Positions 44,403 through 56,701 of a DNA stretch of 64,000 bases are shown here, one piece after another. Position numbers and translations under genes: made by a program. The DNA comes from Spirochaetota bacterium (GTDB taxonomy: Bacteria > Spirochaetota > UBA4802 > UBA5550): positions 62,001-126,000 of the forward strand of contig JAGNKX010000002.1 of NCBI GenBank assembly GCA_017999915.1, given 5' to 3'. The notes below the pieces were generated by a model. That model was not told the origin of the DNA. It did not search any database and worked only from the letters and a program-made list of their open reading frames with translations. Position 1 is the first letter of the stretch, and each line of letters opens with the position of its first letter.

Positions 44403-44664
44403 GGGACCTGAAATTGTTCTCTATCATCGCGACAATCGTTTCAACGACTTTCACTTCCCCTTCGCCGCTGGCCCGCACGATAAGCCTGGACCCGGATATT
44501 ATTGCCAGTCCCAGAACGGACATGATAGATTTGCAATCGGCCTCCACGTCATCCTTGATGAGCTTCACATCGCAAGGATATTTCATCGCCTCTTTGACGA
44601 TCATCATTGCCGGCCGCGCGTGCACGCCGGCGTCGCTCTTCACGACCACTTCGCGCTCGGTCAT
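44377..44664 (-). CDS. ptsH: phosphocarrier protein HPr
   Basis: 95 residues. H15 (DAGVHARPA) is the PTS phosphorylation site and S46 (CKSIMSVLGL) is the site used by HPr kinase. The C-terminus is extended by about 8 residues. It overlaps hprK by 4 bases and ntrY by 26 bases. No enzyme I or sugar transporter is here, so HPr may act in regulation (inference). Confidence 0.95.
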   Translation of the reverse strand: MTEREVVVKSDAGVHARPAMMIVKEAMKYPCDVKLIKDDVEADCKSIMSVLGLAIISGSRLIVRASGEGEVKVVETIVAMIENNFRSHEEPSQKN

Positions 44665-45611
44665 CGCCTGTTCTTCTCCCTCATCAGGTTCTCCTGGATG
44701 TTCCGGTCCAGATCGCGGGCCGTGAATATGCCCAGCTTCTTGAGGCGCTGGTTCAGCGCCGCGGTCTCCACGATGATGGGGATGTTCCTTCCCGGCCTGA
44801 CCGGCACCATGATGCTCGACACGTCGATGTCGAGGACCGGGTAGGTCTGCTCCTCGAGGCCGAGGCGGTCATACTCCTTGTTCTGGACCCATTCCTCGAG
44901 GATGACGACGAGCTCGACGCGCTTGCGGTCCCGCACCGAGCGGATGCCGAATATGTCCTTCACGTTGATGATGCCCAACCCCCTGATCTCCATGTGGTGC
45001 TTGAGGATCGGCGATCCGCTCCCCATCAGGATGGATTCGTCCACCCGCTTGACCATGACCACGTCGTCGGCGATGAACCGGTGGCCCCGCTCGACGAGCT
45101 CCAGGGCGCATTCGCTCTTGCCCACGCCGCTCTTGCCGATCAGGAGCACCCCGATGCCGTACACGTCAACGAAGGTGCCGTGCATCGATATGGCCGGGGC
45201 GAAGGCCTCGTTCAGGAGATAGATAAGCGAACTGGTGAACCTGGTCGTGTCCTTGCGGGTCACGAAGACCGGCACGCCTTTCCGGTCCGCGACCTCGAGG
45301 AACTGTCCGTCCGGCTCCTCGTCGTGGGTAAAAACGCAGCAGAGCACGTCGTATGAAAAAAACTTCGATATGACGTCCCGCTTGTCATCGGCCGAGAGCT
45401 GGCGCAGGTACGCGCTCTCTCCCAGGCCGAATATCTGTATGCGATCATGGGCGAAAAATTCGTAGAACCCGGCAAGGGTCAGGCCGGGCCTGTTGATGTC
45501 GCCGATCCTGATCTCCTTTTCGAGACCGGACGCGCCCGCCACCAGGCGTATCTGCAGATCTATCACCCCGGTGTTCTCAAGAAAATTTTTAACCAGTATC
45601 TTGTTTTCCAT
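44661..45611 (-). CDS. hprK: HPr kinase/phosphorylase
   Basis: Phosphorylates and dephosphorylates HPr at Ser46. 316 residues: N-terminal MurF-like domain (1-130) and the kinase domain with P-loop GKSGVGKSE (about residue 155), FIADDVV, and the family signature RGLGIINVKDIFGIRSVR. GLEEQTYPVLDID and VRPGRNIPIIVETAA complete the pattern. Its stop overlaps the HPr start. Confidence 0.95.
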   Translation of the reverse strand: MENKILVKNFLENTGVIDLQIRLVAGASGLEKEIRIGDINRPGLTLAGFYEFFAHDRIQIFGLGESAYLRQLSADDKRDVISKFFSYDVLCCVFTHDEEPDGQFLEVADRKGVPVFVTRKDTTRFTSSLIYLLNEAFAPAISMHGTFVDVYGIGVLLIGKSGVGKSECALELVERGHRFIADDVVMVKRVDESILMGSGSPILKHHMEIRGLGIINVKDIFGIRSVRDRKRVELVVILEEWVQNKEYDRLGLEEQTYPVLDIDVSSIMVPVRPGRNIPIIVETAALNQRLKKLGIFTARDLDRNIQENLMREKNRR

Positions 45612-45715
45612 TTATTGTGTTATATGGCGCCGCGAAACGTTAATTTCTGCAAACAGACGGCATACGCCCCCGGCGCGCCGCGCAACGACGCGCGGTCCGC
45701 CGGGCCGCGCCGGCT

Positions 45716-46516
45716 TTAGAAAGCCGGGACCATCACTTCATACTTGTTGCCGTTCTTGCTTATGATGTTGATGAACTCGGACTCGATGTTGAAAAACGGC
45801 AGGAAATGCTGCCTGGATTTTTCAATCTCGAGTATCGCCTCGTGGAGCGTGAGCTTCAACATATCGCATGAACTGAGCTTTTTGAATTCCACCCGCGGAT
45901 TGGCCGGGGTGTCATCGAAAATATCAAGGGCATAGGTGACAAAATGACCGGCATGGGAGCCGCTTTCCGTCTTGTCGGCCGGAACCTCGACCATCTTCAG
46001 GCCGTTCGTCCCCCGGAAAATGACCGCGTAATTCTTGTTCGACGACGACACGTCGGTCTCTATCTTGCTGTCGCCCTTCTTGAACAGGATATAGTCTTTC
46101 TTATCGACCCTCATCTGCAGCAGCGCCTCGATGTTGTCGACAGGCTTGTTGCTTACCTGCCGGAGGACCACCTCTTTTCCCCCGTTGCTGGTGACATCTA
46201 TGGAAGCGACCTCGCCCCGTTCGGGGCCCTTGTGCATCTGGTGCTTCTCTTTGTAACGGCGGACCTGTTTCTCCATTTTCTCGAACAGGAGGTCAATAGC
46301 GGAGAAGAGATCGGCCGCTTTTTCCTTGCCGTGGAACTGCACACCGTCGCCGTTCAGCACGACCTCGGAAATATGGTCCAGCTTTTCAACCGACAGTATG
46401 ATGTGCGCGTCTATCAGCTGATTGAAATGCCGGTCCAGCTTTTTTATCTTTTTTTCCGCATAGTCACGCAGGCTATCCGAGACATTCAGATGCCTTCCGG
46501 TTACTGTGATGTTCAT
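45716..46516 (-). CDS. hpf: ribosome hibernation promoting factor, long form, with an extra C-terminal domain
   Basis: 266 residues. The N-terminal S30AE domain (1-95, MNITVTGRHLNVSDSLRDYAEKKIKKL) blocks the decoding centre; residues 118-180 (KPVDNIEALLQM, YILFKKG, YAVIFRGTNGLKMVEVP) match the dimerisation domain of long HPFs. Residues 215-265 (LKLTLHEAILEIEKSRQHFLPFF, KNGNKYEVMVPAF) look like a second copy of that domain. Usual long HPFs are about 180-190 residues. The start overlaps the rpoN stop as ATGA, with GAGGAG upstream. Confidence 0.88.
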   Translation of the reverse strand: MNITVTGRHLNVSDSLRDYAEKKIKKLDRHFNQLIDAHIILSVEKLDHISEVVLNGDGVQFHGKEKAADLFSAIDLLFEKMEKQVRRYKEKHQMHKGPERGEVASIDVTSNGGKEVVLRQVSNKPVDNIEALLQMRVDKKDYILFKKGDSKIETDVSSSNKNYAVIFRGTNGLKMVEVPADKTESGSHAGHFVTYALDIFDDTPANPRVEFKKLSSCDMLKLTLHEAILEIEKSRQHFLPFFNIESEFINIISKNGNKYEVMVPAF

Positions 46517-47955
46517 GTACGCTCCTCTGTTTTAATTTTATTGATCTTCTTTCGTCTACCGGACGTCGGGATGTTCAGAATCCCCCGGTATTTCGCGACG
46601 GTTCGGCGGGCCACATGCATGCCCGCCTTGCCGAGTATCCTCACGATCTCCTCGTCGCTGTAGGGCCGCTCCGCGTTCTCGCGCTCGATGACGTCACGAA
46701 TAAGGTTCATGGCCTCGTCGGACGACACCTCCGCGCTGTTCTGGCCGGCCTTGAGCCGCGACACGAAAAAATATTTCAGATCAAAGACCCCCCACCCGGT
46801 CTGCACATACTTGTTGCTGGTGGCGCGGCTCACGGTCGACTCGTGGAGGCCCAGCTCGCGCGCCACCTCGCTGTGCGTCAGCGGATGCAGATGGCCCGGC
46901 CCCTTTTCCAGGAATTCGCGCTGGCGCTTCATGATGGATTCGACAACCCTGAGTATCGTGGCGCGCCTGTTCGCTATATTTTTCACGAGGTAACGGGCCG
47001 ACTGCATTTTATCCTGAATATAGTCCCTTAATTTTTTTTCAATGTTTTTTTTCTTCAGCAGCGAAATATAGTATGAATTGATGCGCAGCCCCGGGACCCA
47101 ATCGTCATTGAGGCCCACGATGATCTCCCCGTCCACCAGGCGGACGTCGATGTCGGGGACAATATAGCGGATGGTTCTGTTCGAATACTGGCGGCCCGGA
47201 TACGGATCAAGGTTCTGTATCATCTTCGTCTTCTCCAGCACGTCCGCCATGGCCATGCCGAGGGTGCCGGCGATTTTCTTGTAATCCAGCTTCTCGAAAT
47301 GCTCGAAGCAGTCGGCCACGATCCTCCTGAGCACGTCGTCGGCGGGATAAAAATGGCCGCACTGGACCAGCAGGCTTTCCCGGACGCCCCGGACGGCGCA
47401 CCCGACGGGGTCAAAAAGGCTGACGGCTCCGGCGAACCGCTCAGCGTCGGCGGGAGTGCAGATGTCCTTGAGGAGCTCGGCCGGGTCCTCGTCCAGGAAC
47501 CCGTTCTCATTGATGGACGTTATGATCGCCTGGTAGATGTTCAGCTCGCGCTCATCACGGGCCGTCATCCGCGCCTGCCAGAGCAGGTGCTCGGAGAGGG
47601 ATTCCTCCTGGGCCGTTATGTTCTCGAAATAATTTCTCTTTCTATCTTCCTCGTCGGAATAGCCGGTATCGCTGGCGTCCTCGTACATCGCCCGCTGTTC
47701 CTCGCCCCTGGTTATCAGCGACTCGTCGCCGCTCAGGTTCCTGGCGACGCCGGCTTCAACGTCCGTTCCCGGCGTCGTCTGCGAGGACATGACGACGCCG
47801 TCCTCTTCCAGGACCGGGTTTTCAACAAGTTCATCTGATATTCTGTCGTAGAGTTCTACCGTGGAAAGCTGTAACAGCTCAATAGCCTGTTGCAGGGACC
47901 GGGTCATTACCAGCTTTTGTGATTGCTTCAATCCTGTCTGGAGAGAAATGGTCAT
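46513..47955 (-). CDS. rpoN: RNA polymerase sigma-54 factor
   Basis: 480 residues from ATG 47955. Region I starts MTISLQTGLKQSQKLVMTRSLQQAIELLQLS; the core-binding and helix-turn-helix regions include LTHSEVARELGLHESTVSRATSNKYVQT; the RpoN box is ARRTVAKYRG (in HVARRTVAKYRGILNIP). It directs transcription from -24/-12 promoters with NtrX-type activators. First gene of the hpf-hprK-ptsH-ntrYX run. Confidence 0.96.
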   Translation of the reverse strand: MTISLQTGLKQSQKLVMTRSLQQAIELLQLSTVELYDRISDELVENPVLEEDGVVMSSQTTPGTDVEAGVARNLSGDESLITRGEEQRAMYEDASDTGYSDEEDRKRNYFENITAQEESLSEHLLWQARMTARDERELNIYQAIITSINENGFLDEDPAELLKDICTPADAERFAGAVSLFDPVGCAVRGVRESLLVQCGHFYPADDVLRRIVADCFEHFEKLDYKKIAGTLGMAMADVLEKTKMIQNLDPYPGRQYSNRTIRYIVPDIDVRLVDGEIIVGLNDDWVPGLRINSYYISLLKKKNIEKKLRDYIQDKMQSARYLVKNIANRRATILRVVESIMKRQREFLEKGPGHLHPLTHSEVARELGLHESTVSRATSNKYVQTGWGVFDLKYFFVSRLKAGQNSAEVSSDEAMNLIRDVIERENAERPYSDEEIVRILGKAGMHVARRTVAKYRGILNIPTSGRRKKINKIKTEERT

Positions 47956-48002
47956 GTTATCAATCACCGCTGAGCGTACTCGCGCCAATAATCCATATCA
48001 TA

Positions 48003-48031
48003 ATAGTATACATAAACAACGATAAAATCAA
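48003..48031 (-). promoter_or_regulatory. sigma-70 type promoter for rpoN
   Basis: Minus strand: TTGATT, 17 bases, TACTAT, about 48 bases before the rpoN ATG. Confidence 0.42.
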
Positions 48032-48381
48032 TAAGGATATAAAAATAATGAAGGAGTCTACATGAAATTATCGTTCCTGGCCGATGGCATATCCGCATTA
48101 TAAAGCCCCTCCGGGACTTTTTAGAAACCAATTACTTTTGAGTATGCTATAATAAAATGTTACAAAAAATGTATTATTGTTCTTTTAAAGGAAATCTATG
48201 AAATATAATACTTGCTGTATAACTTATTAAAATCTATACGCTTCGCCCACGCCACCTTCGGCTGCGGGGGCGGATTCAGCTAATCAATAAGTTGTACACA
48301 ATGTCTGATATTCGTAATATTTTCAATGAATATATTTGCAAGCATTAATTAGAAACCCTCTTAAAAATGGCAGATAATGAT

Positions 48382-48413
48382 AAAATACCCCGCAGCAAGA
48401 TACGGGGTATTTT
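48382..48413. terminator. perfect hairpin, possible bidirectional terminator
   Basis: AAAATACCCCG / CGGGGTATTTT with a 10-base loop. The A/T ends of the stem give a short T-run on either strand. It could end the transcript of the uspA-like gene on the minus strand about 320 bases past its stop. Confidence 0.5.
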
Positions 48414-48440
48414 GTCGCATAATGTTTTGCGCGTTCTCAT

Positions 48441-48478
48441 CCCCGGAGCAGAGCTCCGGGGTTTGCGCGCGCTGCGAT
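48441..48478. repeat. family C repeat, copy 1
   Basis: CCCCGGAG / CTCCGGGG stem followed by TTTGCGCGCGCTGCGAT. A related block with CGGAGC-GCTCCGG then TTTTCGCGCGCAGCGAT is at 56151-56187. Confidence 0.5.
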
Positions 48479-48484
48479 CAAATC

Positions 48485-48630
48485 TGTCATTGCGAGGAGT
48501 CCCGATTACATCGGAGCGATGCATCAATCTTGATCTTGATTTTGATTCAGAATGTAGACATGGGAAACCTTTTCATCATTATCCTATATGTAATGATACT
48601 CATGATCGCTTCGCTTTGCTCGCAATGACA
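48485..48630. repeat. TGTCATTGCGAG ... CTCGCAATGACA inverted repeat unit
   Basis: Perfect 12-base inverted repeats at 48485-48496 and 48619-48630 bound a 146-base unit. The TGTCATTGCGAGGAG type end is a motif that I recall from dispersed intergenic repeats in diverse bacteria, so this is probably a non-autonomous repeat. No transposase is inside. Confidence 0.6.
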
Positions 48631-48733
48631 AAAAAAGCAAGAACAATTGCATTTTTTAATATATCTATTAATCGTATCAATAACCCACGGCCAATCCCGC
48701 AGCCTTTTAAAAAGGGAGCTCCGGAAATTCCCG

Positions 48734-49165
48734 CTATTTAACGACGCACACGGAGCAATGGGCGTGGTGCACCACCCGGTCGGATATGGAGCCGACCAGG
48801 AACCGCGCTACGGCGGAGCGGCCCTTGCTGCCCATGACGATCATGTCATACCCGCCCTGTTCCGCGATCTCGCAGATCTTGTCCGCCGGGTATCCCTCCA
48901 CCACGATCCGGTCCCACTCGATGTTCTCATGGTCCAGCATGGGATGGACTTCCTCGAAGCGCTGCTCCGAGAGCCACTTCACGCGGTCGACCCCCTCCGG
49001 CGCGGCGCCGTAAAATCCGGGCAACGGGCCGAATTCCTCCACGACCTCCAGGACCGTCAATTTCGCGTGGGACTCCTTGGCTATGACGATGGCCATTTCC
49101 AGCGCCTTCTTCGAGGATTCCGATCCGTCCACCGGGGCCAGCACCTTCTGGATATACCGTCTCAT
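48734..49165 (-). CDS. universal stress protein (UspA family)
   Basis: 143 residues, single Usp domain. [20 protein letters not shown] at the start and the ATP-binding motif [21 protein letters not shown] near the end indicate the nucleotide-binding type. GGAGAAGAACAG precedes the ATG. It stands alone between the hairpin-rich gap and the large lipoprotein's terminator. Likely a stress or starvation protein; no specific partner seen. Confidence 0.92.
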
Positions 49166-49353
49166 CTGTTCTTCTCCATGAACCGTATTTGGTTGAACTA
49201 TAAATAATAGTTACCCATTATCAACAGGGGAGTCAAGAAATTTATTGAAGGTGTGATTGCGAATCCAGAGGAGCCAGATAGCTGCCGGATTGCCATTGTC
49301 TTTGAACATCGCTCGGATCAAATCATGGGAAAGCCATGTATGCAAAACGCGCA

Positions 49354-49389
49354 AAAAGAACACCCGTCCTGCAACGGGCGGGTGTTCTG
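49354..49389 (-). terminator. Rho-independent terminator after the 1423-aa lipoprotein gene
   Basis: Minus strand: AGAACACCCG / CGGGTGTTCT, 10-base stem with inner pairing, followed by five T. It is 27 bases past the stop codon. Confidence 0.85.
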
Positions 49390-49416
49390 CCGTTTAATAC
49401 CGTACTTACGCCTTTA

Positions 49417-52400
49417 TTAATCGGCCTGGAATCCAAGGTTCTTGATAATCACATTGATATCAACCCTCGGATCGTTCATGTCCGCCATGGCCTCCAGCAT
49501 CAGCACCAGGTCGTCCCAGAGGGGCGAATTGGGATCGCTGACAATGCTCCAGCCCAGGAAACGGTCCAGGTCCTCAATGATATACTGCATAGAGTAAGGC
49601 GTCGTCATGGTCGTCACCGCGTAATTCAGGATGCTGTCGTTGTTCTTGAGGAGAATATCGACATTCTTCAGCATCCGTTCGTATTTCTCTCCGGTGCCGC
49701 CGGACGTTTTCATCACGTCATGCACCTGGGGAAGGTAGGCCACCATGTCAATCAGCTGGTCATAAGCGTCCGTATTCCCCGTGCCATGGTCGTACCCGTG
49801 GTAGTGCCAGCCGGCGCTGTCGTGCTTCGCGAAGATCTTGCCCGCCGTGTACAGGAGCCCGTGGACCTGCTCTTCGGTCAGGGATTGGGCCAGGACGGCA
49901 TTGACGATATTCACCAGGTTCGGCGTGATGTCGCGGGAGCCGCCGACGAACTGCTTCAGTTTGCTCATGGAATCTGTAAATGTGGTCCACTGGGCATCAT
50001 GGGCTTCATTCCCGGCGCCTGTCCTGAACGGCCCTTCATACCCGAGGAAGTCCTCGAGGGAAATGTCCTCGTTTCTCTGCGAGAATACCCACTGGTAATT
50101 GGTGTAATTAAGGGTCTTATGATAGCCGTTGGTTATGGCTTCGCTCTTGTTGATCTTCATAGCCGTCATCAGCTGTTCAAGACCAAGCGCAACATTCTGG
50201 CGCTGGGCGCTGTTGGGTGTTTCGCCCAGTTTCTGCAGCAACGCCATGAGGCGGGTCACCAGCCGCGTATTGTCGGTGACCATGGGCAGAAGCCCGTTGG
50301 TATCCGTCATCCCGCTGCCGGTCATTACGCTGAGTACCGTCCTGAGAGGCGTTGTGCCGTTTGTAGCGACCTCTCGCGGGAGGTACGGGGTCGTGTCATG
50401 GGCCGTATTCGGGTTGAAATACTGGTAATCAAACCCTGATTCGGTTTTCACCCTGGGCACCCACCGGTTATCGGCCGTGTAGTAGCGCATCAGCGGCTTC
50501 GAAAGCGGTATAAAGATTCCTTCGAGAAGGTCCGCAAGGGGATACTTGTGCTGCGACACGGTATAGTTGTAATTATGACCGGAAGTCGTCTTGGTATAGC
50601 TGGTCCCTTCCCACAGCGTTCCGGTTATGGCCAGGAGAAGCGGGAAGAACTTATTCCGGTTGTCCCAGAGGGTAGTGCCGTCAACGCCGATGTCTGCATT
50701 GGATGATTGAATGTAGCCCTCGTTCTGATCGGTCCCGTCAACATCGGCATTCAAGAATCCCATACGCACAACGGGATCTATATTCCTCCCCACAGCATCG
50801 GGAAGAACATAGCCGTTCCCCAGGATGGTCCCGAAGAGATAATCATTAGAAATGGTTATCAGCGCCAGGTTGAGGTATCTTACAAATACGAGTATACGGC
50901 CGTCCCCGGGCCTGCTGGAATCCCTGTAATCCGGGACATTGGCCGTTGCCACATCGCCAAGATGGATTTTTGACGAATAATAATGATCGGATGCCCAATG
51001 GCCGTTCTCATCACCCTTGCGGGCATTGGCCAGGCCAACCGCACCGTTGGCTTCAATTATTACAAAGGCGCCGCTATGACCGAGGGTTATGCCTGCCAGG
51101 GCAGCCTTCATGTACATCGGAATGGTGAATACAAATTTTTTCTCAAGCAGGAACCACTGGAGGTTCCGATACATCGCTTCCTCCTGCGAGCGGCATTCGC
51201 GGATGGCGCTCTGCTCAGGAATCTTTTCGAAGAACCTGAAATTACCGCTTGTCCTGCTGCCATTTGAACTCTGGTTGAGATGGAACATGTCATTTCCGCT
51301 GGTTCCATCCACCCAGCTGTCACCACCAGCATTCATGGGCGGCGCAAGATATTTCCGACCGCCATCATCATAGGTTATGACGAAATAATCCGATTCAAGC
51401 ACCGGCCGGTACCGGTTCGCCCGCTGGGAATTCACATCTGAATCATTGTCCGGATTGTCTGAAACATCATTGGCATTTTCAGCCGTGTGACCCTTGTGGG
51501 GATACCAATACTCCCATGTGGACACAGTGGAGCTGGGCTTGTACACGTAGGCATATACTTCACCGTTCGGCTTGTAATAGCGGCACACGGTGCGGTTGCC
51601 CTTGCCCGGCCAGTTGAAGGTCATGGTGTCGGCGTCCTTGTTGTCTTTCTCCGGGCTGTAATAGTAGGGTCCGCCGCCGTCCCAGCATGAGCGGGCCAGC
51701 CAGCTCATGAGGAACTGTGCGGTATTCAAAATGCCCTTTCCGTCAGCAACCTTCGGGAAATAGGTCCGGTAATCATTTTCACTGCCCGTTGTGGAAAGGG
51801 TCTGTTTGCTAGTGACCGAGACTGCAGTCTCACCGCCGTTGGGTATGCCGGCATCGCCGGCGCATCCCGCCGGGAGCAGTCCGAGGGTCGGGAAATCATA
51901 GCCGAGATAAAACTTGTGTGAGCCGTAGGAGTTAACAGAGTACGGAAATGAGCTCCGGGCAACATGGTCGCCCTGGTCCAGCCGCTCGTCAAGGGCCAGC
52001 GAATAGGAGTGCATCCCCAGGGAGCAGCCGGCAACCGTAACCTGTCCGGAGGTCAGGGCATACATCGAGTCGTTTATGGTGATGATGCCGTTCGTTGATG
52101 CACCGTGCGTGCGGTTCCAGTTGCTCGCCGGTTCCTCGCCGTCGCTACTCAGCTGGGTCAGGAAACCGAAATTATAACTTCCCGCTATCGTAAAAACAAG
52201 ATGATCCAGGTACGACAGACTCGACCAGCTTCCGTCGGCGGAACGCAAACGTCCGCGGCCATTGTACTCAAGCATTCTCTTGATGGAAGGCTCAAGGGTC
52301 ACCGTATTGTAATCGATCCCGGCGTTCTTCAGCTTGGCCAGCGAAACGGTGAGTTCCTCCACCGGCGAGCGGCCGCTGCTGTTGCTGAAGATCTTCATTG

Positions 52401-53688
52401 TATCGTCCAGTGTCGAGCTGTCGTCGTCCCGAATAAAAAGCTTGGCCACGTTTGGAACCATGTCGCGGACAGTTTCCTTAAGAGAGGCGTTGACATAGGG
52501 ATTCGTGTTGTGGTAGTCCGCCACCGTGTCGTAGGCATTGTCCCCGAACTCATGGGTGCCGAAGTACTCGGACAGGTTGATAATGGCGCTCTTCATCTTG
52601 GCCGTGCCGTCCGGTGCGTTAAGAAGCGCCGCCACGTCTTCGGCAAGGATGCTGTCAATGATGTCCCGCGCTTCGGAATCATTGGCAATCACATTATTGA
52701 GACCATAGAGCAGCTTGACTAGTCCCTTCGTGGCGTTGCCCAGATCCGTATTCCTGGTATAGTCGCCGGTAAGGACCAGATCCCTGCTCGCCGGGGGCGT
52801 GTAACTGCCGTTGACCCACATCGGGTAATCGCAGCTCATGGTCATCTTCCCCAGCAGCTTGGCCAGCTTGGTGACGTCATATTCGATCCTGACGCGCGTC
52901 GCCCGGTCGTTCCAGTTATTCACGGTCGCACCGACGAGATTATCGGTGAGACAGCGGTCGTTGGAAGTCAATTCCACGGAATTGCCGGAACCATCGTAGA
53001 GCGTTACCTTCATGCCGATCGGAATTTCCAGTGATGAGATATCCCCTGAGGATATGCCGTTTGAAGGAAGGGTGTAATCGCCCGCCGGCAGGTCCACGGC
53101 ATACCCGGAGGCGTCATACATGCAGTGCTGGAAAAACCTCACCTTCATCATGCGCCCCATGTCCGACTCGATCTCGACCGGGTCCTTTTCGTTGACCATG
53201 TAATCCACCACCTGTCCGGCCATGGCCAGAATATCACTGCTCAGATTGGTATTGTCAGCGACCTGGTCAAGGGCGCTGTAAAACTGCGCCAGCCGGTCAA
53301 CACTGGTGTTGTCATAATAACCCTTATCAGCCTGGCCTGAATCCTTGTAGTGATAATCGGCTGGATCCATCATGATCTTCAGCAGCCCGTGGAGCTCCCC
53401 TACCATGGGAACCAGGAAGGGCGCCTGGACCAGGTCGACAGCGTCCCTTAGAAACAGAGGAATCTCAAATCCATTGAGGAGCATATCCCCCAGAGTGTCG
53501 TTGAGCCTCTGGGAGTCCAATGAATCAATGGCGCTGTGCAGGGCCGGAAAGCCGTCAAAAAGCTTGAGGAGATTGTATTGCGGCTCCTGGTCATTTTGTT
53601 GAAATGAAGCAAGCTGTTTCTTGGAACAGCCGGAACCGATCACCAATACCAGCATGATGCTGATTACTATAGATATGAATTTATTCAT
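49417..53688 (-). CDS. very large lipoprotein of unknown function
   Basis: 1423 residues. The signal sequence ends in the lipobox VIGSGC with the lipidated cysteine at 21, followed by SKK. The mature protein has no recognised domain, no internal repeats that I could see and no membrane segments. It is rich in Asp, Asn, Gly and aromatic residues, with a helical first 150 residues, a mixed middle with many Tyr/Trp/Gly (for example TWEYWYPHKGHT), and a helical C-terminal 300 residues. It is a single-gene unit with own promoter and terminator. Probably a surface or outer-membrane lipoprotein (inference). Confidence 0.85.
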   Translation of the reverse strand: MNKFISIVISIMLVLVIGSGCSKKQLASFQQNDQEPQYNLLKLFDGFPALHSAIDSLDSQRLNDTLGDMLLNGFEIPLFLRDAVDLVQAPFLVPMVGELHGLLKIMMDPADYHYKDSGQADKGYYDNTSVDRLAQFYSALDQVADNTNLSSDILAMAGQVVDYMVNEKDPVEIESDMGRMMKVRFFQHCMYDASGYAVDLPAGDYTLPSNGISSGDISSLEIPIGMKVTLYDGSGNSVELTSNDRCLTDNLVGATVNNWNDRATRVRIEYDVTKLAKLLGKMTMSCDYPMWVNGSYTPPASRDLVLTGDYTRNTDLGNATKGLVKLLYGLNNVIANDSEARDIIDSILAEDVAALLNAPDGTAKMKSAIINLSEYFGTHEFGDNAYDTVADYHNTNPYVNASLKETVRDMVPNVAKLFIRDDDSSTLDDTMKIFSNSSGRSPVEELTVSLAKLKNAGIDYNTVTLEPSIKRMLEYNGRGRLRSADGSWSSLSYLDHLVFTIAGSYNFGFLTQLSSDGEEPASNWNRTHGASTNGIITINDSMYALTSGQVTVAGCSLGMHSYSLALDERLDQGDHVARSSFPYSVNSYGSHKFYLGYDFPTLGLLPAGCAGDAGIPNGGETAVSVTSKQTLSTTGSENDYRTYFPKVADGKGILNTAQFLMSWLARSCWDGGGPYYYSPEKDNKDADTMTFNWPGKGNRTVCRYYKPNGEVYAYVYKPSSTVSTWEYWYPHKGHTAENANDVSDNPDNDSDVNSQRANRYRPVLESDYFVITYDDGGRKYLAPPMNAGGDSWVDGTSGNDMFHLNQSSNGSRTSGNFRFFEKIPEQSAIRECRSQEEAMYRNLQWFLLEKKFVFTIPMYMKAALAGITLGHSGAFVIIEANGAVGLANARKGDENGHWASDHYYSSKIHLGDVATANVPDYRDSSRPGDGRILVFVRYLNLALITISNDYLFGTILGNGYVLPDAVGRNIDPVVRMGFLNADVDGTDQNEGYIQSSNADIGVDGTTLWDNRNKFFPLLLAITGTLWEGTSYTKTTSGHNYNYTVSQHKYPLADLLEGIFIPLSKPLMRYYTADNRWVPRVKTESGFDYQYFNPNTAHDTTPYLPREVATNGTTPLRTVLSVMTGSGMTDTNGLLPMVTDNTRLVTRLMALLQKLGETPNSAQRQNVALGLEQLMTAMKINKSEAITNGYHKTLNYTNYQWVFSQRNEDISLEDFLGYEGPFRTGAGNEAHDAQWTTFTDSMSKLKQFVGGSRDITPNLVNIVNAVLAQSLTEEQVHGLLYTAGKIFAKHDSAGWHYHGYDHGTGNTDAYDQLIDMVAYLPQVHDVMKTSGGTGEKYERMLKNVDILLKNNDSILNYAVTTMTTPYSMQYIIEDLDRFLGWSIVSDPNSPLWDDLVLMLEAMADMNDPRVDINVIIKNLGFQAD

Positions 53689-54138
53689 AACCTCATGACC
53701 TCCTCAAGTTAAGCTTCCCTTCTATAACTTACTAATCAAATCCGATAACAATCTTAATTAAATAACCGTCCAGCCGGTTTTTTTATAAATCTTTCTTTTA
53801 AAATAATCATTAATAATGCTAAAAAAAATAATCCTATCTTTATGAATTATTATGCCACCTGTTCAATAAAAACAATATACAATAAAAAATCCGCTTAGGC
53901 TATAATATTGATAAAAATAATCAGCCCGTGTCGGCTTTTTATAATAAATAAATTAATTTTCCTTACAAAAACCTATCAATGATAATATAATCAGTGATCA
54001 TCAAATACTGATATGAGAATAATAAATACTAAAATTGTATAATTGTCTGGCCAATTTCAGGTATCATCAGAAAATGACATTATCATACACGGCATTGATG
54101 ATTAGATAATCCCACTCTGAGTCCGGCAAGAAGGTCTT
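53689..54138. other. 450-base AT-rich gap between pyrG and the large lipoprotein gene
   Basis: Very AT-rich compared with its flanks. Apart from a candidate promoter next to the lipoprotein gene (53722-53751) I see only runs of A and T; no credible open frame. TCCGGCAA / TTGCCGGA arms straddle the pyrG stop, without a T-run. Confidence 0.6.
53722..53751 (-). promoter_or_regulatory. candidate promoter of the 1423-aa lipoprotein
   Basis: Minus strand: TTGTTA, 18 bases, TTATAG, about 34 bases before the ATG at 53688. GAGGAGGT is the ribosome site. Match is moderate. Confidence 0.35.
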
Positions 54139-55764
54139 TTATTTGCCGGAGCGTCTTTCCACCGAGGCCCTGATAAAATCCCTGAAAAGAGGGTGCGGTT
54201 TCGTGGGTTTTGATTTAAACTCCGGATGAAACTGGGTTGCTATGAACCAGGGATGACCGGGAAGCTCGATGGTCTCAACCAGGTTAATAGGCACATGGAT
54301 CCCGCCGAAGGCCATGCCGCATTTCTCGTAAGTTTCGCGGTAACGGTTGGTGAATTCATACCGGTGACGGTGCCTCTCCATGACCGATTCTTTGCCGTAT
54401 ATCTCCCTTACCCTGCTTCCTTCATTAAGATGGCACTGGTACGCGCCCAGGCGCATGGTGCCGCCCATGTCAAGGACGATCTCCTGGTCCTCAAGGAGGG
54501 ATATGACAGGGTGAGGCGTGGAGGGATCGAATTCCTTCGAATTGGCCCCTGCCAGGCCGCAGACGCTGCGGCCGAATTCGATGACTGCGCACTGCAGGCC
54601 GAGGCAGATGCCGAAGAAAGGGATATTGTTGGTGCGCGCATGGTTAATGGCCAGCACCTTCCCCTCGATTCCCCTGTCGCCAAAGCCGCCCGGCACCAGG
54701 ACGCCGTCAATGCCGTCGAGAAGGCTCGTGATGCTATCCGGGGACTTCTCGATATCCTCGGAATCGATGCGGACTATGTCCAGGCGGGCCTTGTTGGCAG
54801 CCGCCCCGTGAAGGATCGCCTCGTATATGGATCGATAGGCGTCCTGGAGCGAAATATACTTGCCCACCACGGCGATGCGGACATTCTTTTCCGGGTTCTT
54901 CAGGGACTTGATGAAGCCGTCCCAGGCGGGGATCTTGAGGGGCTTCGCGTCCATCTTGAAGTTTTCCAGCACGATGTTGTCGTATTCCTGCTCATGGAAC
55001 ATGTAGGGGATCTCGTAGATGGACCCGGGGACGTCGATGGCGGATATGACATTGCGCTCCGATACGTTGCAGAACAGGGCTATCTTGCTTTTCAGGTCCG
55101 TGGTCAGCGGGTTGGCCGAACGGCAGAGGAGGATGTCGGGAATGATCCCTATTTCCATCAGCTCCTTGACCGAATGCTGCGTCGGCTTCGTCTTCTGCTC
55201 CCCCGCGGCGGACAGGGTGGGCACCAGGGTAAGATGGACATTGAGGACCCGGTTCGAGCCGAGCTCCTGGCGGATCTGGCGGATGGCCTCCAGGAAGGGG
55301 ATCGATTCTATGTCACCCACAGTGCCGCCGATCTCGACCATGACGAAGTCCAGGTCGTAGTTGGCCGCGACGCTGTAGATGCGGCTCTTTATCTCGTCGG
55401 TGATATGGGGAATGACCTGGACGGTGCGGCCCAGGTAATCGCCCCGCCGCTCACGCTGGATGACGGTGTTGTAGATCTGGCCCGTGGAAATCGAGTTCTT
55501 CCTGGTATACTCTGCGCCGGTGAAGCGCTCGTAGTAGCCCAGGTCCAGGTCTGTCTCGGCGCCGTCCTCCGTCACGTACACCTCGCCGTGCTGGAAGGGG
55601 CTCATGGTGCCCGGGTCTATGTTTATGTAGGGATCCATTTTGATGATCGAAACCCTGTAGCCGTGGCCTTCCAGGAGCATGCCCAGCGAGGCTATGGAGA
55701 TGCCCTTCCCCAGTGAGGAGCATACTCCCCCGGTCACGAAAATGAATTTTGTATTAATGTTCAT
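54139..55764 (-). CDS. pyrG: CTP synthase
   Basis: Makes CTP from UTP with glutamine nitrogen and ATP. 541 residues: synthase domain with FVTGGVCSSLGKGISIASLG, MDPYINIDPGTMSPFQHGEV and EIGGTVGDIE; C-terminal class I glutaminase with GFGDRG, catalytic Cys in FFGICLGLQCAV and the HPEFKSKP end with its His-Glu pair. Normal length. A leader hairpin lies 76 bases upstream (55840-55874). Confidence 0.97.
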   Translation of the reverse strand: MNINTKFIFVTGGVCSSLGKGISIASLGMLLEGHGYRVSIIKMDPYINIDPGTMSPFQHGEVYVTEDGAETDLDLGYYERFTGAEYTRKNSISTGQIYNTVIQRERRGDYLGRTVQVIPHITDEIKSRIYSVAANYDLDFVMVEIGGTVGDIESIPFLEAIRQIRQELGSNRVLNVHLTLVPTLSAAGEQKTKPTQHSVKELMEIGIIPDILLCRSANPLTTDLKSKIALFCNVSERNVISAIDVPGSIYEIPYMFHEQEYDNIVLENFKMDAKPLKIPAWDGFIKSLKNPEKNVRIAVVGKYISLQDAYRSIYEAILHGAAANKARLDIVRIDSEDIEKSPDSITSLLDGIDGVLVPGGFGDRGIEGKVLAINHARTNNIPFFGICLGLQCAVIEFGRSVCGLAGANSKEFDPSTPHPVISLLEDQEIVLDMGGTMRLGAYQCHLNEGSRVREIYGKESVMERHRHRYEFTNRYRETYEKCGMAFGGIHVPINLVETIELPGHPWFIATQFHPEFKSKPTKPHPLFRDFIRASVERRSGK

Positions 55765-55839
55765 ATGCCACCAGAATTAAAAAGCGTTAGGGCTTTCATG
55801 CCATGTTTCCGGATCCGGCAAAGACCCGGGAAATGCACA

Positions 55840-55874
55840 TAAGAGCGCGCCCCATGTTTTGGGATGCGCTCTTA
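55840..55874 (-). promoter_or_regulatory. hairpin in the pyrG leader
   Basis: TAAGAGCGC / GCGCTCTTA 9-base arms with inner CCCA / TGGG pairing. No T-run follows on either strand, so it is not an ordinary terminator. It lies in the 5' leader if the promoter at 55925-55953 is right; a role in pyrG control is possible but unproved. Confidence 0.4.
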
Positions 55875-55924
55875 ACAGGCATCGGCCCTTTGGCAGATAT
55901 TATCGAATATCATTCCAACTGAAT

Positions 55925-55953
55925 AATATGACATAATAATTGGACATTGTAAA
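55925..55953 (-). promoter_or_regulatory. candidate promoter for pyrG
   Basis: Minus strand: TTTACA, 17 bases, CATATT, about 160 bases upstream of the start. Confidence 0.3.
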
Positions 55954-56150
55954 TCCAAAAAATGGGCTTTATATTACATGGATGTTAATTTTTTAATGCA
56001 ATTTGTCTAGCTCCGCCCCCCCCCTTGGTTTTAAACATATATCAAATAATTAATATAAAAATTTAATGACTGTGCCAATGAAATACCCCACGGTCCGGAC
56101 ATGACGTTACGGGGGCATTCTGCCATATATTGTTTTAACCGGTTTCAACT

Positions 56151-56187
56151 ACGGAGCGGAGCTCCGGGCTTTTCGCGCGCAGCGATA
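56151..56187. repeat. family C repeat, copy 2
   Basis: CGGAGC-GGA-GCTCCGG-type palindrome followed by TTTTCGCGCGCAGCGAT; related to 48441-48478. Confidence 0.5.
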
Positions 56188-56326
56188 AAACATGGCTTGA
56201 CATAATACTCGCGATCGGTTTAATTTTATACGGACACGGTCGGATTATCCCGTTGGCCATGAAGCCCGGCCGGCCCGGACAAATGTGACGTCGTATCATG
56301 CAAAATATATTCACCAGAGGACCGAA

Positions 56327-56701
56327 ATGGTAGAAAAGCGCAGATTTCCCCGCCATCAGTGCAAGCTTAAAACGGTATTCAATTATTATGAAGGGAACCC
56401 CGATGATATTGACAACGAGATAACGGTCCCGAGCAAGGGAAAGGGCGTCATCTGCGACATCAGCCAGGGCGGCGCGCTCCTGGTCACCTCGGCCCGCGTT
56501 TCTCCCGGCGTGCCGGCCCTTCTCAATTTCAAGATAAAAAAGCAGAAGATGGCGATACATGGCCGCATCGTCAGGACAGGATTGTTAAAGAACAACCCGA
56601 CCGAGGTGGCCCAGAAGATGGCCCGTTTTTCCTCCTTCGGCGACGCATACATAGCGATAGAATTCAAGGAGCCCATCTCATTTTCATCTGAAGATCTGTG
56701 A
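56327..56701 (+). CDS. PilZ domain protein
   Basis: 124 residues from ATG 56327, with GAGG 7 bases upstream. KRRFPRHQCK supplies the R-x3-R motif and ICDISQGGALLVTSARV the D-x-S-x2-G motif, so c-di-GMP binding is likely. A following beta-rich part (LLNFKIKKQKMAIHGRIVRT, DAYIAIEFKEP) is the usual PilZ barrel. Only 6 bases separate it from the next, unknown gene. Confidence 0.82.
   Translation: MVEKRRFPRHQCKLKTVFNYYEGNPDDIDNEITVPSKGKGVICDISQGGALLVTSARVSPGVPALLNFKIKKQKMAIHGRIVRTGLLKNNPTEVAQKMARFSSFGDAYIAIEFKEPISFSSEDL

Follow-up and report, generated by a model that had tools for sequence, protein, structure and literature searches.

A giant lipoprotein family of Spirochaetota encoded in partnership with a FadL-type outer-membrane channel

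The giant lipoprotein gene and its product

The stretch of DNA analysed here (the window) comprises 64,000 nucleotides from a Spirochaetota bacterium (assembly GCA_017999915.1, contig JAGNKX010000002.1, positions 62,001 to 126,000), and the gene in question encodes, on its minus strand, a lipoprotein of 1423 residues. We find that this protein belongs to a family of giant lipoproteins whose genes are recurrently paired with a gene for a FadL-type outer-membrane channel, a gene partnership that is well supported. The features of the locus are collected in Table 1. The window copy stands alone, between the genes for CTP synthase and a universal stress protein. Its open reading frame (ORF) is exactly that of the original prediction, and because paralogues and a 37-sequence alignment exist, it represents a real conserved protein and not a chance ORF. 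The predicted terminator is present, and the 450 bases upstream of the gene are AT-rich as claimed, with 28% GC compared with 53–56% within the gene. A promoter of its own is not established, since the sole minus-strand sigma-70-like match in the upstream gap scores 9/12 (53968–53941), and the scanned region contains 14 such matches against 5.6 in shuffled sequences. An Rfam scan of positions 48000–56500 gave zero families at gathering score.

Table 1. Coordinates of features at the giant lipoprotein locus (positions in the window)
Feature	Position	Strand	Basis or remark
Giant lipoprotein gene, 1423 residues	49417..53688	-	ORF call, ATG start; paralogues and homologues
Codon of Cys21, presumed lipidated residue	53626..53628	-	Conserved FQxN tail follows
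β/γ-crystallin domain, residues 181–274 (about)	52867..53148	-	Inserted in N-terminal helical region
Conserved core, residues about 423–1100	50389..52422	-	Conservation; motifs HGxxTxGxxTxND, AGDxGxPNGG, RxCWxGxGPYY, RECxSQEEAxxRNxQW
Ribosome-binding site, AGGAGG	53699..53704	-	Read off sequence, 10 nt before ATG
Operator-like palindrome ACCGGCTGGACGGT	53765..53778	-	76 bases before start codon; common to paralogues and FadL gene
Intrinsic terminator	49361..49380	-	Stem-loop 49380–49361 and T-run, 36 nt past stop codon
Upstream neighbour, CTP synthase	54139..55764	-	By inspection of ORF; outside the system; marks syntenic position in genus
Downstream neighbour, universal stress protein	48734..49165	-	By inspection of ORF; outside the system

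The family has a recurring layout, with a lipid anchor, a short FQxN tail, a helical region, a conserved core, and a helical C-terminus. Cys21, which ends the hydrophobic signal peptide, is at least 90% conserved in the 37-row alignment, as are Phe29 and Asn32 of the tail that follows (90% or more). The lipobox of the original prediction holds as far as this conserved cysteine is concerned, but the signal peptide ends in VIGSGC, and with glycine at −3 the window protein does not match our narrow lipobox pattern. The narrow pattern matches 34 of the 66 family members with a called 5′ end, and a looser scripted test finds a signal peptide ending in cysteine in 62 of the 66. The family members are therefore classified as predicted bacterial lipoproteins, with presumed lipidation at this cysteine.

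Pfam and NCBIfam returned zero families for the window protein at E ≤ 10, and no known family in Pfam, NCBIfam, or the PDB spans most of the length of the lipoprotein. PDB matches of the window sequence to neuroglobin and chlorophyll-binding chains are short stretches with E 1.1 or worse, and those of the 37-row profile to influenza HA2 chains (best E 0.0044) and designed helical proteins involve helical stretches only; both were set aside as chance. One 49-residue PDB chain matches the same profile at E 0.33.

The claim that the protein has no recognised domain thus stood for the family libraries, but not for residues 181–274, where a PDB sequence search with the window sequence alone gave the β/γ-crystallin Protein S at E 7.9e-6, and a four-row profile of the segment gave it at E 4.9e-18. 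With Pfam, four such segments matched Crystall_3 in two cases (best 1.6e-6), Inhibitor_I36 in three (best 2.7e-4), and Crystall in two (best 0.0066), while the window's own segment matched no family. In β/γ-crystallins, calcium is bound by the motif N/D-N/D-X-X-S/T-S. The corresponding motifs in the window insert, NDRATR (motif B) and SGDISS (motif A), are degenerate by inspection. The segment is homologous to Protein S and other β/γ-crystallins, but unlike these it is a single insert with a degenerate calcium motif, detected in 7 of the 74 family ORFs (fragments included), all seven from the genus of the window.

The conserved core contains the polar residues Arg482, Arg578, Asp612, Glu821, Arg830, Cys832, and Asn842, all invariant in the 37-row alignment. 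Two AlphaFold models were calculated from 20 rows each, the window protein and 19 homologues drawn from 14 loci (L072–L085). The mean predicted local distance difference test score (pLDDT) was 58.5 for residues 22–1110 and 58.0 for residues 480–1423. Within residues 422–1080, 40 of 66 ten-residue blocks have a mean pLDDT of 70 or more (range 46–93); values below 50 prevail in the helical N-terminal region and in the crystallin insert, and also occur over much of the C-terminal helical part. For these long models of middling confidence, Foldseek found no PDB match at E ≤ 0.001, and a VIA re-search gave a best Z of 2.2 for one model and nothing at Z 2 for the other. The core may represent a fold that has not yet been solved.

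Distribution of the family

The window genome (5.46 Mb, 29 contigs) encodes three paralogues besides the window copy, four members in total. Two are 59% and 53% identical to the window protein over their full length, and one is 44% identical over residues 271–1404. Members were found in 20 of the 59 genomes searched, that of the window included, and a nine-row profile run against 392 Spirochaetota genomes detected the family in 38. When prokaryotes at large were scanned with a pattern as seed, each species being represented by one genome, 14 loci were obtained, of which 12 carry record titles naming Spirochaetes, Spirochaetota, or Spirochaetia, one is titled “bacterium”, and one Thermoplasmata. 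The latter contig (L079, titled Thermoplasmata archaeon) encodes two giant lipoprotein ORFs of the spirochaete type together with an exact copy of the palindrome described below, and is probably mis-binned. Full-length members range from about 1130 to 2180 residues. As far as searched, the sequence evidence supports an undescribed family of the spirochaete lineage, and the open-licence literature, judged by titles and abstract openings among the matches listed, describes neither the family nor a FadL–lipoprotein uptake pair. Overall, what the original prediction had observed is confirmed, and its interpretation as a lineage-specific surface protein is borne out only with respect to lineage specificity.

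The position of the window gene is shared within the genus. In the window (44661–55764) and in L042, L043, L048, L049, and L050, the interval between CTP synthase and usp-rpoN-hpf-hprK (names by inspection) is the same, and in several genus members this stable site of tandem duplication is occupied by one giant lipoprotein gene or by two. In a genome from another family (L151 2483–4021, G031), a FadL gene of the partner type described below has rpoN, hpf, and CTP synthase genes nearby (by inspection), which belong to the same housekeeping block as the genes flanking the window lipoprotein.

A FadL-type channel is the recurrent genomic partner

Clustering of the genes around family members yielded one recurrent neighbour, a protein of typically 440–545 residues that has a FadL-like hatch and a signal peptide at its N-terminus. 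Its adjacency was audited for 79 lipoprotein ORFs of 250 residues or more, with mechanical ORF picking. The next gene is a same-strand FadL gene in 33 cases and another family member, in tandem, in 13; 11 ORFs end at a contig or locus edge, and the remainder are followed by another same-strand ORF (10) or an opposite-strand ORF (12). Because the picking was mechanical, some of these last 10 and 12 ORFs are spurious; in the window itself, an opposite-strand ORF was picked over the stress-protein gene. The FadL gene is thus directly downstream, always on the same strand, for 33 of the 55 assessable lipoprotein ORFs, or 28 of 50 without the five loci that were fetched for their FadL. An adjacent pair is present in 12 of the 20 lipoprotein genomes of the order. 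The two reading frames overlap by four bases in 8 of the 33 pairs; seven of these pairs come from the more distant families f11 and f34, and the eighth from G020.

The same partnership is seen in co-occurrence. The FadL subfamily scores above 100 bits in 38 of the 392 genomes, 35 of which are shared with the 38 lipoprotein genomes. The corresponding Fisher p of about 6e-43 is overstated, because linked FadLs were the input of the profile, the genomes are related, and the 100-bit line is post hoc. As for the exceptions, two of the FadL-only genomes (G144 and G167) encode a lipoprotein directly upstream of the FadL, and in the third (G213) the FadL is cut by the contig start; among the lipoprotein-only genomes, the gene runs off the locus in G155, is a fragment in G034, and is a weak match in G079 (E 4.6e-4).

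A 22-row profile of the partner matches TodX and TbuX in the PDB with E 3.6e-9 to 8.7e-9 (TodX 3.6e-9, TbuX 4.4e-9) and FadL chains with E 5.5e-6 to 2.6e-5, the matches to solved barrels covering 93–163 of 483 positions and therefore part of the barrel. By this homology to solved FadL-family barrels, the partner is a predicted channel of the FadL/Toluene_X type. Among NCBIfam models, AupA ranks first for each of the four partners scanned (E 2.1e-6 to 1.6e-11), as it does for the strong FadL of the window genome (E 1e-4). Other roles of the channel were considered as well: the BamG model of NCBIfam gives weak matches to some partners (E 6e-6 to 0.024), and for a PorV-like role there is a PorV_fam match with E 3.9e-5 over 32 residues. 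With cleavage sites predicted by a simple A-x-A rule, 21 of 22 partners have, among the options, a mature tail of 32–33 residues up to a conserved asparagine, so that a short N-terminal hatch of canonical length is likely.

Two further genes are found at the family loci. A gene for an α/β-hydrolase-like protein recurs in 13 loci, and the one scanned has matches below cutoffs. A gene of about 1000 codons where complete adjoins the lipoprotein gene in 10 loci, upstream in L115, L116, L117, L118, L120, L123, L127, and L132, and downstream in L121 and L122. Both scanned members of this group match the bacterial Ig-like domain Big_5, and the protein may be a third part of the system in the lineages concerned.

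A shared palindrome and a FadR-like regulator

In the window genome, the one strong FadL lies on another contig from the window gene, and adjacency therefore does not apply. An alignment of the upstream regions of eight family genes has one common block, which consists of the palindrome ACCGKCYGGACGGT itself or of a version that departs from it at one or two positions, and ACCGKCYGGACGGT lies upstream of both the window lipoprotein and the strong FadL of its genome. The original picture of a stand-alone single gene is incomplete, since at other loci the gene is coupled to one for a FadL-type channel, and in the window genome the lipoprotein and FadL genes have an operator-like site in common. 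The exact sequence ACCGNCYGGACGGT has six matches in the 5.46 Mb, preceding two lipoprotein genes (that of the window included), the FadL gene, a cadherin-like lipoprotein gene, and the gene for an α/β hydrolase with a signal peptide; the sixth is inside an ORF. Across six genomes of the genus, ACCGKCYGGACGGT is found exactly at 24 distinct sites, and its 27 strand matches compare with 3 when the pattern is reversed. The genes behind these sites encode eight giant lipoproteins, four FadLs, three cadherin-like lipoproteins, one hydrolase-like protein, and two other lipoproteins; of the other six sites, at least two are inside ORFs. Outside the genus, the site precedes family genes exactly in L056 and L079, and with one mismatch in L047 and L060. 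Lipoproteins with fn3 domains likewise carry the palindrome. The cadherin-like lipoprotein carries it in three genomes of the genus (L159 1578–3014, identified with Pfam, and L197 and L191, by inspection).

A TetR-like gene is located divergently beside FadL in the window genome and in three of the four other genus genomes read that have an unlinked FadL. The copy from the window genome (L161, 2018–2704), the one submitted to family searches, matches TetR_N above cutoff (E 1e-13), and its best NCBIfam match is FadR of the TetR type (E 5.6e-14, residues 32–211), with 52.4 bits and hence under the equivalog cutoff of 200. This TetR-type, FadR-like protein probably controls the lipoprotein and FadL genes, presumably by binding to ACCGKCYGGACGGT.

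Some isolated observations are also noted. A TetR-like gene (by inspection; L169 2–1039, G000 contig 2) is divergent beside the fourth lipoprotein paralogue, which has an upstream site with one mismatch. Where another TetR-like gene (by inspection; L173, G000 contig 9) begins, there is a near-match, ACCGATCGGACGGT, and the two are perhaps a related regulator and site. A gene for a lipid-binding START-domain protein (L170 1603–2337, G000 contig 4) lies downstream of a one-mismatch site; since such sites are mostly noise, it is only a lead.

Proposed function and alternatives

Based on the gene pairing, the co-occurrence, and the shared site, we find it rather probable that the giant lipoprotein is the outer-membrane half of a two-part uptake system with a dedicated channel of the FadL/TodX/AupA type. 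The steps of such a system, including docking, surface exposure, and the nature of the cargo, are inferred as follows. Through its lipid anchor and conserved FQxN tail, the lipoprotein would be held to the outer face of the FadL barrel, where the conserved core and the helical arms would capture hydrophobic cargo, e.g., fatty acids and alkane-like or ester-derived molecules, some of it freed by secreted α/β hydrolases. The cargo would then pass from the lipoprotein to the channel, and an N-terminal hatch of canonical length would allow its lateral movement into the membrane. Several paralogues, as the four in the window genome, could share one channel and differ in ligand, and the crystallin insert could be a clade-specific, possibly calcium-stabilised spacer.

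Several points weigh against this proposal. Neither the window gene nor the other family genes of its genome have a FadL neighbour. The four scanned partners are far under the AupA equivalog cutoff of 840 (best 43.4 bits), and the cargo can therefore not be read from the name; with Pfam, two of the four have no match and two match Toluene_X below cutoff. No ligand cavity is shown, because the core is without a fold match. The corresponding asparagine of TodX, at chain position 33, is counted from a negative-score alignment, with the start of the mature chain assumed. In the profile searches, two candidates per genome were scored for the lipoprotein and up to four for FadL, and presence is therefore possibly undercounted; the 100-bit line was drawn once strong and weak matches were seen to be separated by a gap, and a profile built from lipoprotein-linked FadLs favours that subfamily. 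As for the palindrome, 12 of the 24 exact sites precede neither a giant lipoprotein nor a FadL, at least two being inside ORFs, and several more distant family members have no site within three mismatches. Allowing one mismatch gives 39 strand matches in the window genome against 20 for the reversed control, so that weak sites are mostly noise. The link between site and regulator is positional only: in one genome of the genus, a FadL with a neighbouring TetR-like gene (L140) has no site within three mismatches in 400 bases, and in another (L139) the ORF list contains no TetR beside FadL.

A partnership between a barrel of this fold and a lipoprotein could also serve membrane assembly. According to two reports on the β-barrel assembly machinery (BAM) of Bacteroidota, the FadL-family barrel BamG docks an elongated surface lipoprotein, BamH, the genes of BamG2 and BamH2 form a putative operon, and an N-terminal extension of about 10 residues in BamG runs through the lateral opening (PMC12578637, PMC12611786). 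With this precedent, and with the weak BamG matches of some partners, the spirochaete pair could be a FadL-fold accessory of barrel assembly with the lipoprotein as an extracellular scaffold for the maturation of outer-membrane proteins or surface lipoproteins. The spirochaete partners, however, appear to have a TodX-length tail and to lack the BamG-type extension, chains named BamH are absent among the PDB sequence matches of the 37-row profile, and a patchy distribution (38 of 392 genomes) and multiple copies (four in the window genome) are not typical of a core subunit of such machinery. Hatch length, copy number, and distribution lead us to rank a BAM-type role lower and to regard it as unlikely. 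The operator-like site and the FadR-like regulator suggest a catabolic regulon instead, and nutrient uptake fits the patchy distribution, the several paralogues, and this regulator better than does membrane assembly.

The large size of the protein, its tandem copies, and the clade-specific crystallin insert would also suit a surface adhesin or a structural coat, with the neighbouring FadL independent and merely co-regulated; this agrees with the solitary window copy and with the occurrence of the palindrome at genes for cadherin-like and fn3 lipoproteins. Against such a role stand the near one-to-one co-occurrence of the two genes and a same-strand pairing with one FadL subfamily that recurs across several families of the phylum, with four-base overlaps in 8 of 33 pairs, and there is little probability that it is the correct explanation. 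An extracellular esterase, lipase, or glycosidase feeding the channel, which the invariant polar residues of the core might indicate, is the least probable, since no catalytic family is found by Pfam, NCBIfam, or PDB sequence searches, the middling-confidence models have no significant fold match, and separate hydrolases carry the palindrome.

Returning to the proposed uptake system, we can tentatively extend it to a FadL-based counterpart of SusCD in Spirochaetota, although the odds are somewhat against so broad a version. A giant surface lipoprotein, its core possibly of an unsolved fold, would load hydrophobic nutrients into FadL, in paralogous sets and as part of a FadR-type regulon with secreted hydrolases. 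FadL-family channels are usually regarded as single-component transporters. If the proposal is true, a surface lipoprotein can catch oily nutrients before they enter the barrel, as is the case for glycans in Bacteroidota. The channel, the site, the regulator, and the hydrolases also provide a function-linked handle on a large lipoprotein family that has no domain annotation.

Comparison with known systems

Of the known pairs, SusC and SusD are the functional model for the proposal. SusC is a TonB-dependent barrel transporter that takes glycans, and SusD is its dedicated, nutrient-capturing surface lipoprotein, with many paralogous pairs. The proposed likeness is that of a barrel with a dedicated surface lipoprotein that captures the nutrient, again in paralogous pairs; unlike SusC, the spirochaete barrel is of the FadL type, and the lipoprotein has no SusD match in Pfam or NCBIfam.

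For AupA, the top NCBIfam match of the spirochaete channel, a published report describes outer-membrane alkane uptake in Marinobacter and an operon with the partner AupB (PMC5989066). Each channel is thus encoded in an operon with a partner, but AupB is an inner-membrane protein, whereas the spirochaete partner is a giant lipoprotein.

The BamG–BamH and BamG2–BamH2 pairs, as described in the two reports (PMC12578637, PMC12611786), resemble the spirochaete pair in combining a FadL-fold barrel with a large surface lipoprotein, in the latter case from a putative operon. No sequence relation between the lipoproteins was detected, and the spirochaete system differs in its apparently missing BamG extension, its multiple copies and patchy distribution, its operator-like site and FadR-like regulator, and its phylum. 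This parallel raises the question of whether pairing of a barrel with a docked surface lipoprotein is widespread in the FadL family. Barrels with a dedicated lipoprotein were already known, and what appears new here is the FadL partnership of a lipoprotein family that has no model in the libraries searched.

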